From the NCBI RefSeq assembly GCF_025602895.1, contig NW_026516212.1, positions 248,001 to 312,000 on the forward strand: a DNA stretch of 64,000 nt, given 5' to 3'. Under the pieces are notes generated by a model. That model was given only the letters and a program-made list of their open reading frames with translations, did no database searches and was not told the origin of the DNA. The DNA is from Polychytrium aggregatum (Eukaryota > Chytridiomycota > Chytridiomycetes > Polychytriales). Made by a program: the position numbers and the translations under genes. This document shows, in pieces, positions 1,842 through 56,613 of the stretch (positions are counted from its first letter, which is position 1; each line of letters begins with the position of its first letter).

Positions 1842-1869
1842 TACAGGCAATCCAATAAAAAACGGGACA
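1842..1869 (+). repeat. Left terminal inverted repeat of the Fanzor transposon
   Basis: It starts with TA then CAGGCAATCC and continues through an A-run to CGGGACA. It pairs with 5450-5477. The same motif recurs at both ends of the small element at 56228-56613. Confidence 0.8.
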
Positions 1870-1927
1870 CCCGGGTTTTTGACCATTCATCGAATATTTT
1901 GTTACCCAATGTTATCGCGCGCTGGCC

Positions 1928-2734
1928 ATGACCATTCGCCACACATCCGACTTTCGCACCGCCGCATTGCGATGCTACGCCCTCATCCATAGCCTGCGTA
2001 AGGTCGCCTCCATATTCAGTGTATCCAAGAGCACCATCCATCGATGGCACCGAGGATGCAAGCTGGATGACCCATCCCGGGTCCCAGCTCGCAGATCCAC
2101 TTTCTTCGAGCAGGCATGTCCAGTCATTCGCACCCTGATTGAACAGGACCCGTTCCAGACTGGTCCTGTGTTGCGATGCAAGCTCGAGTCCATCCTCCAG
2201 AGGAAAGTATCACTCTCACTCTGCCACACTGCCATCCACCGAGCGGGTCTCTCACACAAGAGGGCAACACACCTCTACAAGTCCAAGCGACTGGATGAGC
2301 GAGTGGCACAGTTCAGGGACCAGGTCCGCTCCATCGACCCACGACGATTCGTTTCTGTCGACGAGACAGGGATCAGGAGATCCATTTTCCCTCTCTACGG
2401 ATACTCGCCGAAGGGTGCTCCGCTTCGCCAGCGCAATCACATGAAACACAAGTCTGTCTCGGCTGCATTTGCCATCAACCACTCTGGTGTGCTGCATCGC
2501 ATGTACATCCCCACATCATTCAAGACACACTCGATGGTCGAGTTCTTTGAGCGAGCGACCTTCCCAGATGACTCTGTGATTGTGATGGACAATGTCAGCA
2601 TGCACAAGACAATGGCTGTCCTGGACTGCATCGAGCGCCGAGGATGGTCAGTGATCTTCACCCCACCTGCCTCGCCCGACTTCAATCCCATCGAGAACTT
2701 CTTTGGGGTTGAGTCCCCATCATTTTGGGGTTGA
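1928..2734 (+). pseudogene. IS630/Tc1-mariner DD34E transposase, C-terminally truncated
   Basis: The 268-residue frame starts at the ATG shortly inside the left repeat. Residues 10-45 form a homeodomain-like helix-turn-helix for binding transposon ends. The catalytic triad of the IS630-Tc1-mariner RNase H fold is visible: D145 in VSVDETG, D221 in VIVMDN and E256 in SPDFNPIENFF, a DD34E spacing. In the family the protein runs on for some tens of residues after NPIENFF. Here the frame enters 22-bp repeats and stops 12 residues later, so the C-terminal helices are missing. It would catalyse cut-and-paste transposition in the nucleus if intact. The truncation coincides with the junction to the Fanzor unit, suggesting the Fanzor segment replaced or was inserted into the transposase 3' end. 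Confidence 0.85.
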
Positions 2735-2762
2735 GTCCCCACCGATTTGGGGTTGAGTTCCC
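2705..2762. repeat. Three 22-bp direct repeats, each a mini-hairpin
   Basis: GGGGTTGAGTCCCC occurs at 2705-2718 and 2727-2740, and with one change at 2749-2762, so the period is exactly 22 bp. Each unit can fold as a GGGG/CCCC stem around TTGAGT. The array sits precisely between the truncated transposase and the Fanzor gene. Function is unknown. Confidence 0.8.
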
Positions 2763-2873
2763 TCCAATCAAGCCGCCATTTTCGCGTTCACATCCCTGGC
2801 TTGAACCTCTCGGCGATTGTTGAACAGGGTCACTTCCCCAACCAGCCCGCGCAGACGGGTTCCTGCTCTCGGG

Positions 2874-2880
2874 TATAAAT
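2874..2880 (+). promoter_or_regulatory. Candidate TATA box of the Fanzor gene
   Basis: TATAAAT lies about 130 bp before the Fanzor ATG at 3007, in otherwise unique sequence after the hairpin repeats. This suggests the Fanzor has its own promoter. Confidence 0.4.
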
Positions 2881-3006
2881 GCCACACCTTCGTCCTGCTG
2901 CTTTCTTCCCTCACCTCGCCTTGATCTGATCATCGCGCTATTGTACGATAAAAAAGTCTCTGCTCTGACCAGTACCACTGGCAGGCATCCAGCATCCTCT
3001 GTTCCC

Positions 3007-5377
3007 ATGCCTCCGAAGCGCAAGGGTACCGGTGATGGCCAGCCTCGGCCACCCAGGCCCAAGAAAGCCAAGTCACAGTCGGAGCCTGTCTCTGGTTCGT
3101 ATTCTGACCCCACGCATGCTTGTTCGTCTGTTGCTCCGTCGCTCACCACCACTGCTTCTGCAGATCCAATGGATGTCGATCCCACCGAGCCTGGTCCATC
3201 TACTTCCTCGAGTACTGGCAAGCGATGTCGCCAGTGCGATGGCACCGATCACGAACGTTGCAACACCAGCAAATGTCCCAAATACCGGCCCCTCAAGAGT
3301 TCTGTCGTCCCACTCGTGGATGGAAGGTCATCCGCCCCTCAGTTCAGCTGCTTCAAGCAGACGATGGATGGCTGTTGTCTCAATCCCGCTCTCCGCGACA
3401 AGATCCAGGCCACCGTCGAGGCCATGACCCAGATCTAGTTCGAGGCATCCAGGCTGCTCAACCTGCACATCCTCCGGTGCATCGAGCAGGATATTCCCGT
3501 CCCCGTCATCTCCAAGTCCACCCCTGCTTTCATCCGCCAATGCTTCAAGATTGTCGAGGCCGATGCCCTCTCGCCGACCGGGGACAACGAGAAATACAAC
3601 GAGCATCTGGTCGCTTCCTTTCGCGACTACCAGACCACTCGGCACGCAGACCTGCCTCCGGCCCCTCGTCTGCCTGATGGTGCTCACAGTCAGCTTCTCA
3701 CTCTCGCTGTCAATGCCTATGCCACCAACTGCACCACCCACCTCGACCTGGCCTACTGGCGACTCCTTCGCCGCTTCTGCGCTGCCGTCTTCCCTGCCAA
3801 CAAGCACAAGCACGAAGCCATCGAGGCTTGTCTTAAGCTCTTCGAGAAACCAGGGCAGACTCCACCCAAGGCCGATCTCGAGTTCCTCTATCCAGACTTT
3901 GGCCACATCCTGGACGAGTTTCGGTACAGCAGCGACCAGGACCGCTTCCGGGCCCTCCATCGCCTCTCACACCATGTGAGAATCCTCGCCCGAGACAAGA
4001 TGGTCGACAATGTCCACAAGTGGATCGACTGTGACATGCCCGCTCTCCGAGTCACCGAACTGCAGCGCCAGGCCAAGCTGGACGAGCTCACTACCCAAGG
4101 CATTCCCTCCGACGACAAGAGGTTCACCAAGGCCAAGTCGGAGCTCGGCACCACCAAGTCCAAGATCAACAAGCTGGCATCCAGGATCAACTGGGCACTC
4201 AAGCAGCTCGCCGTCGACACTCCTCCGGCCGTGTGCACGATGGTTCCTCTATGCACTGCCACGGCCAAGTATGTCAAGATCGACACGGTCACTCTCTGGC
4301 AACTCCTTGACACCGATCATCGTCTTGGACTCACCTGGGACAAGCTCAAGGAACAAGGTGATGACGGCATCAACAACCAGGATCGTCTCTGGCGCAGTTG
4401 CTTCAAGCTGCGTAGTTCCCTCTTCCAAGAGCGGGTCAGGGACAAGAAGCTGTTCAACTACGAGATCAGCACCGATGGCATTGGATGCACCATCGGCCTC
4501 GTCAAGTTTGTGCCTCGAACCGATCGCACCGAGGCCTCCGAGCCTCCTCCGACTGCCGAGCAGCGCATCCAGGCCCACATCGGCGACCCAGACCCCGACA
4601 AGACCACTTGGATTGGCATCGATCCTGGAGTCGGCTCCATCTTCACGGCGGTCATCCAAGCACCGGGCCACCAAGACGAGGTGGTCTCATTCTCCAACGG
4701 CCACTCAGCACATGTGTGGCCATACGTCCAATACTGAGTGGCACAACACCATGAAGTATCGACTCAGCATCGAGACCTGGATATCGACCACCCCCTCGCC
4801 CAAGGTGTCGTCCTCGGAGGCTTTCAAGGTCCATCTCACCCATGTCCTGCGACCGGAACTTCGAGTGCAGCTCGACTTCCACCTTGGCAAGAAGGCCCGT
4901 CACCATCGATTCACAGGCCACAAGAGGCGCCAAGTGGCCGTCGACAGGATGTGCAAGGCCGTCCTGAAGCACGCCCCGATACGGACCGATGTGGTGATCG
5001 CCTTTGGCAATGCGTCATGGCGACAGGGCAAGGGCTATGCATCCAGCCCTCGGAGGCAGCGGTTTGCTCGGTACTTTGAGCAATTCGAGCACCACCGACG
5101 CCGTCCCAATCACCATCATGGAAGCGTCAAGGTGGCCTCGACGAACGAGTTCAACACCTCGCAAGTGTGCTCCAAGTGCCTGGAGCCAGTTCGGCTGGAA
5201 GGACTCGATGCGCCCAGTGTTGCGAATTCCCACTTTGTCAGGAGCTGCAAGAATCCCAGCTGCCGGACAGTGTGGAATCGCGACGTCAATGCGGCGCGCA
5301 ACATGATCACAGTATGCAGGTCGATTGTGGAGATCGGAGAGCGACCGGCGGTCTTCACTCGGAGGCTGCCAAAGTGA
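3007..5377 (+). pseudogene. Fanzor (eukaryotic TnpB-like RNA-guided DNA endonuclease), one stop and one frameshift
   Basis: The reading starts at the ATG at 3007 with basic, proline-rich sequence (PPKRKG then RPKKAK), a likely bipartite nuclear localisation signal. A Cys/His knuckle (CRQCDGTDHERC) follows near residue 75. The RuvC-I motif WIGIDPGVGS has its aspartate at 4621. The RuvC-II strand reads DVVIAFGNASW near 4988 and lacks the usual glutamate. A zinc ribbon follows (CSKC at 5168-5179, then CKNPSC), and the RuvC-III motif WNRDVNAARN has its aspartate at 5282. Intact, it would be about 790 residues and cut DNA guided by an RNA from the element's 3' end. A TAG at 3436-3438 interrupts the frame, and the frame slips by one base between about 4713 and 4737. 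Flanking sequence on both sides of each lesion is clearly the same protein, so these are recent mutations or assembly errors. Confidence 0.88.
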
Positions 5378-5477
5378 TCTGTTTTATTTCTTGTGGCTTT
5401 GCTTGACGCAAGCACAGCACATACTACATGTCCATGGAAACGGCTATATTGTCCCGTTTTTTTCTGAATAGAGTGTA
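5378..5477 (+). ncRNA. Candidate guide-RNA scaffold region and right terminal inverted repeat
   Basis: TnpB and Fanzor guide RNAs come from the 3' end of the gene and the transposon right end, with the guide read from flanking DNA. The 100 bp here contain a perfect five-pair hairpin (TGCTTGACGCAAGCA, 5400-5414) and the right inverted repeat (5450-5477). If the family rule holds, the guide would start at 5478. This is an inference from family behaviour; no RNA evidence is available. Confidence 0.4.
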
Positions 5478-5925
5478 AGGATGAAGAAGTGGAACGCAGG
5501 ACCTCAACCAAGGTGTTCCGTTTTGGTTTGGGCGCGCTGGAGCATTGAAGAAGCTTCATCGGAAACAGAGCCCCCTCTGAATAGGCAGGTAGTACATACC
5601 CAATCTGTTCCTTTGCCTCAGCTCCCTTGGTATCGAGTAACGACCAAACATTGAGCTGTCCAAAGGGTCGATTATGTATTACGCCTCACTATCGCGCTCC
5701 CCAAAATCAGTAACTTGAGCCGGTTACACTCGGACGGCTGGTGAACTGTTACTGGCAGATCACTGTGTTGATGGCCGGATTGAATTGTGCAAGAGGGCAA
5801 ATGGGCACCAGCTCAGTTCGTTTTGAACAACCTCCAGTATCCAAGTGTTATGGGCACCATCAGCGAGACACCCTCTGTATAGATCGAGTTTTGGAGGGTT
5901 GTTTTTCGCGATCCTCATGGAATAA
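5478..5925. other. Intergenic between transposon and HEM4 3' end
   Basis: No open frame with family motifs is seen. The right part must include the HEM4 3' untranslated region. Confidence 0.5.
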
Positions 5926-56227: not shown

Positions 56228-56613
56228 TACAGCCAATCCAATAAAATCCGGGACACCTCGGATTTTGGTCATTGACCGAATAGCTTGTTGCCTCAAAACA
56301 TCGCGCGCTGGCCATGACCGTTCCTTCTTGCAATACATTCGCCATGTATTCGATGGAGACATGCTGGACATACAGCTGTACTTCAGTCTGCCCGGCGACG
56401 GCGATTCAAGCGACTCGATCTCCAGATGTGCTCACAGTACCGGGAAGCCAAGCGATTCGAGAAGGCCGAGTATCTTGATATCGATACACCATGGAGCTGT
56501 CCAGAGGGCGAGTGGATGCGCCACACAGAGAGATTGCCAACCAGAACGGGAAAAAATCGCATGGCCTGCCCACTGGAGCCACGGCTGTCCCGTTTCTTTC
56601 TGGATTGACTGTA
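56228..56613. mobile_element. Non-autonomous (MITE-like) relative of the Fanzor/IS630 transposon
   Basis: The ends read TA-CAGCCAATCCAATAAAA and, inverted at 56588-56613, CAGTCAATCCAGAAAG, both running into CGGGACA and bounded by TA. The left 100 bp match 1842-1940 of the large element, including GCGCGCTGGCCATGACC at the transposase start, then diverge. At 386 bp it lacks both transposase and Fanzor. It could be mobilised by an intact family member elsewhere. Confidence 0.8.

Follow-up and report, generated by a model that had tools for sequence, protein, structure and literature searches.

Anatomy and copy number of the element

The window analysed here is a 64,000-nucleotide stretch of the chytrid Polychytrium aggregatum (contig coordinates 248001–312000), in which positions 1842–5477 hold one copy, read as TA + 3632 bp + TA, of a Tc1/mariner-IS630 transposon family with many copies in the genome. 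The element proper spans 1844–5475, the wider interval taking in the flanking TA on both sides, and its inverted repeat arms (1841–1869 and 5450–5478) are 79% complementary and lie directly inside the TA on each side. Between them sit a DD34E transposase gene and a gene for a Fanzor, both on the forward strand (Table 1). The host, for which the first-pass annotation had suggested a likely chytrid from the letters alone, is indeed one.

Table 1 Features of the window copy (positions in the window; strand given where defined)
Feature	Position	Strand	Basis or remark
Left TA	1842..1843	.	presumed half of target duplication
Left terminal inverted repeat	1844..1869	+	start identical in 39/40 copies
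DD34E Tc1/mariner-IS630 transposase gene, short form (268 aa), without C-terminus	1928..2734	+	domain match and frame
Three 22-nt tandem repeats at the site where the transposase C-terminus is replaced	2702..2767	.	repeat analysis
Predicted Fanzor1 gene, broken in the window copy	3007..5377	+	frames; 790 aa in most intact copies
RuvC-I aspartate codon, DPG motif	4621..4623	+	read from sequence, motif aligned
TNB / zinc-ribbon domain	5126..5305	+	PF07282
Rearranged RuvC glutamate codon (Ealt)	5147..5149	+	read from sequence, aligned
RuvC-III aspartate codon, RD motif	5282..5284	+	read from sequence, aligned
Candidate omega-RNA scaffold (Fanzor tail, 3′ untranslated part, right inverted repeat)	5348..5477	+	L044 fold, miniature copies
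Right terminal inverted repeat	5450..5475	-	
Right TA	5476..5477	.	

A DNA search of the genome (64.7 Mb, 418 contigs) with this stretch gave 1251 candidates; the best 40, which were scored, are all near-full or split copies at ~96% identity, and the 56 matching pieces among the matches listed mostly lie at 95–98%. We assembled a set of 40 copies, namely the window copy and 39 others taken with ~400 bp of flank. Most are ~3.63 kb long, with five (L043–L047) at ~3.74 kb. Both ends fall at the same position in 39 of the 40, the exception (L035) being without a left end; TA adjoins the left end in 38 of 39 copies and the right end in 39 of 40, and transposase and Fanzor sequence lies between the ends in every copy, some transposases being partly deleted. 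The flanking DNA is distinct from copy to copy, save for three same-flank pairs and two partial similarities. Genome-wide, there are 244 right ends at ≤3 mismatches, short remnants and presumed alleles counted in (a reversed-pattern control gave 0), and 178 exact left ends, presumed allelic duplicates included. The enclosure of a Fanzor and a DD34E transposase by TA-bounded inverted repeats, as claimed in the first-pass annotation, thus recurs across the copies. That the two ends might belong to different elements, with the Fanzor lying outside the transposon, was the finding named in advance as fatal to that claim; in 39 of 40 copies one and the same pair of ends encloses both genes within differing flanks, so we rejected this explanation and give it practically no chance.

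Transposase and Fanzor genes

The assignment of the transposase to the DD34E Tc1/mariner-IS630 group holds on several counts. The window protein matches Pfam DDE_3 at 73 bits (cut-off 28.6), a 325-codon frame of copy L066 reaches 127.7 bits against the NCBIfam IS630 equivalog (cut-off 100), 34 residues separate the second D from the E (counted in the window and L044 sequences), and the element ends in terminal inverted repeats. A PDB search with the transposase returned no match up to E 0.01. The window protein is the 268-aa form, in which the C-terminus of longer copies is absent, and a short transposase is found in most of the 40 copies. Among L043–L047 the transposase has 310 residues in three (L043–L045), 328 in one and 122 in one; open 325-codon frames occur in many further copies, sister elements included (best 150 of 335 candidates).

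The window Fanzor carries a Cas12f1-like TNB domain (40 bits; cut-off 26.3) and is not intact, having an in-frame stop after 143 residues and a frame change further on. Intact Fanzor frames, which the first-pass annotation had proposed to look for, do exist among the copies: the Fanzor is intact (780–800 aa) in 32 of 42 scored copies, of 766 aa in L019 and L040, and broken in eight including the window, where scored copies are those in which the Fanzor start was found (L035 and the miniature or deleted copies being excluded and three presumed second alleles included). Between copies, dN/dS is 0.32 for the Fanzor (1.30 and 1.45 in shifted-frame controls on the same alignment) and 0.25 for the transposase, indicating purifying selection on both genes; on these values and the intact frames we rejected the possibility that the family is a dead relic. 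Taken alone, the truncated 268-aa transposase is no less constrained (dN/dS 0.22 over 18 copies), so that some of the constraint seen in the family may stem from its history or from exchange and not from present function.

The available text of Bao and Jurka (2013) defines a Fanzor1 motif, D-X(125,275)-[TS][TS]-X-X-C4 zinc finger-X(5,50)-RD, which is present in L044 with a spacing of 179 between D538 and TS, followed by TS-QV-C4, five residues and RD. The four-cysteine pattern is matched in 24 of the 32 intact Fanzor copies, IDPG in 32 of 32 and the rearranged glutamate in 29 of 32, and both DPG and Ealt are invariant across five aligned proteins. A 2023 paper, in its accessible part, gives DPG, Ealt and a WED-domain TDG as Fanzor1 features; the STDG common to both Fanzors of this genome (see below) matches the last of these, a WED-domain motif by definition. 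The predicted model shows the Fanzor1 fold, at low global confidence, and the carrier is, as for Fanzor1 proteins generally, a eukaryotic transposon other than IS607. Motifs and predicted fold thus place the protein among the Fanzor1 nucleases. A PDB search with a single Fanzor query returned nothing below E 0.19; a profile built from three proteins matched mimivirus L79 (E 5.1e-10), with SpuFz1 at no better than E 0.022.

Nearly the same transposase half also occurs with a second Fanzor. In the sister element L067 (C2:38100–42500, C2 being the contig of the window), the sole one whose sequence was examined, the transposase half is 95.5% identical to that of L045 over 1014 bp and is closely followed by a different Fanzor with 42% identity to the first. 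Its right end was not found within the stretch analysed (C2:38100–42500).

Left-flank T, empty sites and the 3′ end

The base ahead of the left TA is T in 38 of the 39 copies having a left end, compared with an A behind the right TA in just 6 of 40 (Fisher 5e-15). Among the exact left ends genome-wide, T precedes TA in 172 of 178 and another base in six (presumed allelic duplicates included), against a background of 14% of TA dinucleotides within the window. In the window copy this T is base 1841. The right end of the element itself reads G before TA, so that an occupied site would be without the T. According to the accessible text of Saito and colleagues, Spizellomyces elements have a conserved CA upstream of the left repeat and the Spizellomyces nuclease SpuFz1 uses the motif CATA, whereas GtFz1 of Guillardia uses TTAAN; one sentence in the available part of a later Cell paper swaps the two motifs, while its experiments use TTAA for GtFz1. 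Applying the same left-flank logic, the motif here should be TTA, and the one-sided T is as expected, by analogy, of a 5′-TTA target motif of the Fanzor.

No clean empty site was found for 36 insertion sites searched with joined 72+72 bp flanks (best 40 of 484 and 40 of 474 candidates), among which a junction-spanning match should rank first; the empty TA sites that the first-pass annotation proposed to look for therefore did not come to light. Of the 35 sites other than that of L031 (see below), 20 had a second contig sharing the flank among the matches listed, and an element was present in all 12 of these that were examined. Since TA stands at both ends of many copies, the target duplication is presumably TA. 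The single junction-spanning match (on C10, for L031) shows 87% identity over positions 288–432 of the query and lies inside a tandem repeat (L061). We set it aside as atypical, since additional bases adjoin the element and the duplication is not defined by such a site. The 13 bases next to the left end of L031 recur unchanged in the left flank of L021, which suggests a piece copied in from elsewhere more than it does an ordinary insertion.

Seven miniature (ghost) copies of 284–384 bp, two of them with common flanks, all retain ~100–210 nt of the left end and 168–216 nt of the right end. They were drawn from the exact-TTA list and have no independent bearing on the T. The last 130 nt of L044 fold more stably than any of 200 shuffles (z −2.77), a value that varies with length (z −1.08 at 100, −2.06 at 150 and −1.04 at 208 nt). 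In the window copy the terminal 101 nt reach z −0.89, and a sister-type end in the window z −0.07, so the 3′ end beats shuffles by no more than a moderate margin. No compensatory (two-sided) pair changes were seen in the 3′ end among nine sequences, and the one match of an RNA-family search (E 0.85, far below the gathering score) was taken as chance. An omega RNA made from the 3′ end of the element is a candidate.

In TnpB systems, the RNA is read from the element end and the motif is set by the left flank. On this model, together with the one-sided T and the missing empty alleles, we consider it probable that the family is a composite transposon whose Fanzor1 favours retention through a TTA motif and a 3′ omega RNA, this being the best explanation of the observations. 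The DD34E transposase of the left half would move the element into TA, and the Fanzor1 of the right half would be guided by an omega RNA from the element 3′ end, with the DNA just past the right TA as guide. The nuclease would recognise the 5′-TTA before the guide DNA, which is available in an empty site (T-TA-guide) and absent from an occupied one (G-TA-guide). An empty allele at T-TA would then be cut and refilled by repair from the occupied chromosome, and insertions at T-TA would be kept, others being lost on excision.

The T could instead belong to the transposase, as a target preference or as part of the left end, with the Fanzor a passenger that has no effect on retention. Transposases do show target preferences, the two inverted repeats differ, which makes an asymmetric complex conceivable, and some copies with a broken Fanzor have the same ends. 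A palindromic TA should, however, yield a left T or a right A according to orientation, and the right A is as rare as given above; moreover, the CAGCC-type left ends (the type of L067) are preceded by T in 30, C in 14 and A in 5 of 49 cases (G not queried), a distribution different from that of first-type ends (Fisher 6e-10) despite a transposase half that is so similar in the one sister element examined. The purifying selection on the Fanzor also speaks against a passenger, and the Spizellomyces precedent, as far as the accessible text of Saito and colleagues goes, has the motif at the same place. We thus regard an origin of the T in the transposase as unlikely. More than one family may be mixed in the CAGCC-type set, and in L067 the base before TA is A.

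Mosaic copies and known relatives

The copies are mosaics in the assembly. Among 41 near-full copies, the 814 non-allelic pairs have a mean identity of 95.96% (SD 0.44, maximum 97.0%), and linkage across 35 copies (one per site) at 217 common sites falls from r2 0.50–0.56 at 1–3 bp to 0.075 at 16–25 bp and 0.042 at 26–50 bp, reaching background beyond (permuted r2 0.029). Twelve same-flank pairs on different contigs are presumed alleles (or duplicated contigs). Their flanks differ at 6 of 7087 bases (0.08%) and their elements at 921 of 36897 (2.5%), gaps uncounted, with single pairs ranging from 0.4 to 4.3% in element divergence; a few of the element differences reflect forced alignment of two transposase-end forms. 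Such a pair set is a biased sample, as the assembler probably keeps second contigs where repeats differ. We read the mosaics as reflecting frequent in-place exchange between copies, perhaps driven by the nuclease.

Two other accounts have to be weighed. The pattern could be an artefact of assembly, in which consensus building mixed the reads of different copies: linkage decays within ~25 bp, far below the usual length of conversion tracts, and the presumed allelic contigs were probably retained precisely where repeats differ. On the other hand, singletons are in excess and not missing (289 against a neutral expectation of 169 in 35 copies), and their transition-to-transversion ratio (205:84) is about that of common variants (150:67). 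Identical runs are longer than in shuffles (p<0.05) in 9 of 10 presumed allelic pairs and in 34% of 53 sampled non-allelic pairs, so the element differences come in tracts, and presumed alleles often differ in length as well, as at one site with forms of 3629 and 308 bp, the shorter of which is matched in length by forms found elsewhere in the family. In a low-copy repeat (that of L049), judged by its scores, several pairs of contigs from the same assembly score alike or almost alike, and the longer matches are 91 to 99% identical, as is usual; with so few copies this serves as a partial control. An artefact is, on this evidence, rather improbable. Alternatively the exchange is real but stems from ordinary ectopic gene conversion, together with interrupted gap repair once the transposase has excised a copy, and the Fanzor has no role in it. 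Gap repair follows cut-and-paste excision in other DNA transposons, and a shared 134-bp deletion in the family sits between 8-bp direct repeats; a Fanzor-driven process is set apart only by the T being one-sided and by clean empty alleles not having been found, and we give the account of ordinary exchange close to an even chance.

From the near-equal copy distances, the linkage equilibrium beyond ~50 bp and the allele differences despite near-identical flanks, one may draw a bolder picture, which we offer as a long shot: the Fanzor would let a cut-and-paste transposon renew itself in place, so that copies persist only at TTA, where the nuclease can cut the empty allele, the family forms a freely recombining pool through repeated cutting and copying between its members, and a Fanzor swap changes the site rule. 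To our knowledge, the benefit of a Fanzor to its own transposon is not settled, and little was known of the biological function of Fanzors according to the accessible part of the 2023 paper. The family offers a natural experiment in this respect, with hundreds of ends, many intact nucleases and two Fanzors on one transposase half; its left-flank signature predicts the nuclease target motif, its presumed allelic sites let element exchange be followed, and it is a source of new, divergent Fanzor1 nucleases.

The first-pass annotation had called the family undescribed, which is fair for this family but not for its kind, known since 2013: the available text of Bao and Jurka describes Mariner elements encoding a Mariner transposase and a Fanzor1 (PGv-1 and PUl-1), as well as the chytrid SPu-1. 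Like the present family, PUl-1 and PGv-1 hold both genes between inverted repeats with TA flanks, and the same text reports chimeric sets in which one transposase half is joined to different 3′ halves, as here. They differ in host, whereas the Polychytrium family comprises hundreds of ends in one chytrid, with many intact Fanzors and, within one genome, an almost identical transposase half joined to either of two Fanzors. No paper pairing Polychytrium aggregatum with Fanzor was found among open-licence papers, and as far as searches of such papers show, neither the family with its two Fanzors nor its predicted TTA motif nor its mosaic structure has been described previously.

SPu-1 of Spizellomyces punctatus, with its nuclease SpuFz1, shares with our family a chytrid host, TA flanks, ghost copies in which the 3′ end is preserved and, in the published excerpts, conserved bases outside the left end that match the target motif, which in Polychytrium is a predicted one; it differs in that the Fanzor is the one open reading frame described for it there, and SpuFz1 is only 16% identical to the Polychytrium Fanzor in a Foldseek alignment. 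Bacterial TnpB proteins (IS200/IS605, IS607) likewise combine a RuvC nuclease with a zinc ribbon but are carried with different transposases, and the Fanzor falls far short of the cut-offs of the NCBIfam TnpB models. GtFz1 of Guillardia theta resembles the Polychytrium protein in its Fanzor1 fold and in an experimental motif that begins with TTA, and differs in host and sequence (13% identity, Foldseek alignment). The third catalytic residue is N in GtFz1, according to the accessible text on that protein, and D in the Polychytrium Fanzor.

Flanks and internal deletions of the transposon copies

Of the insertion sites of the Fanzor-bearing Tc1/mariner-IS630 transposon, only that of copy L031 has a possible unoccupied counterpart, among the matches listed. 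This copy lies in a tandem repeat (possible counterpart at 1440–1620 of L061, which matches its joined flanks), and the 13 bases adjoining its left end are common to the flank of the copy L021. Inspected by eye, the right flanks of three further copies (L033, L038 and L045) begin with CAG and continue into sequence that looks like the inverted repeats of other Tc1-like families, as though these copies were located in or close to the termini of other elements. Within the element, 8-bp direct repeats bound the deletion in copy L040, and copies L039, L041 and L042 carry a deletion at roughly the same position.

Features located in the window, in transposon copies and elsewhere in the genome
Feature	Location	Detail
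Second miniature Tc1-like element, 0.4 kb	window 56228-56613	left end TTACAGCC
134-bp deletion	L019/L040 element columns ~648-782	in L040
L049-type repeat, inverted pair	C124:405489-410803 and C379:92813-98127	

Related elements and apparent further Fanzor/TnpB-like families

The opening 97 bases of the main element have 79% similarity to the left end of the miniature element, whose interior, by eye, looks like part of the Fanzor gene of the sister family (near-identical transposase half, different Fanzor). Scores and frame lengths differ among genome-wide PF07282 profile matches (best 150 of 663 candidates scored), and additional Fanzor/TnpB-like families seem to be present. One such family, the low-copy repeat L049, has mimivirus protein L79 as its nearest PDB entry. 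The two contigs hosting its inverted pair also have main-element flanks in common at another place.

Annotated host proteins and reverse-transcriptase clusters

Precomputed PF07282 domains occur on two public host proteins, P0001 and P0004 (male sterility domain, kinase-like), which are probably gene models fused with element pieces close by. Separately, a genome search for reverse transcriptases (best 150 of 1671 candidates scored) recovered gene clusters at C1:1275421-1320684 and on C115, C201, C366 and others, with nearly identical scores across many contigs; these clusters are possibly centromeric.
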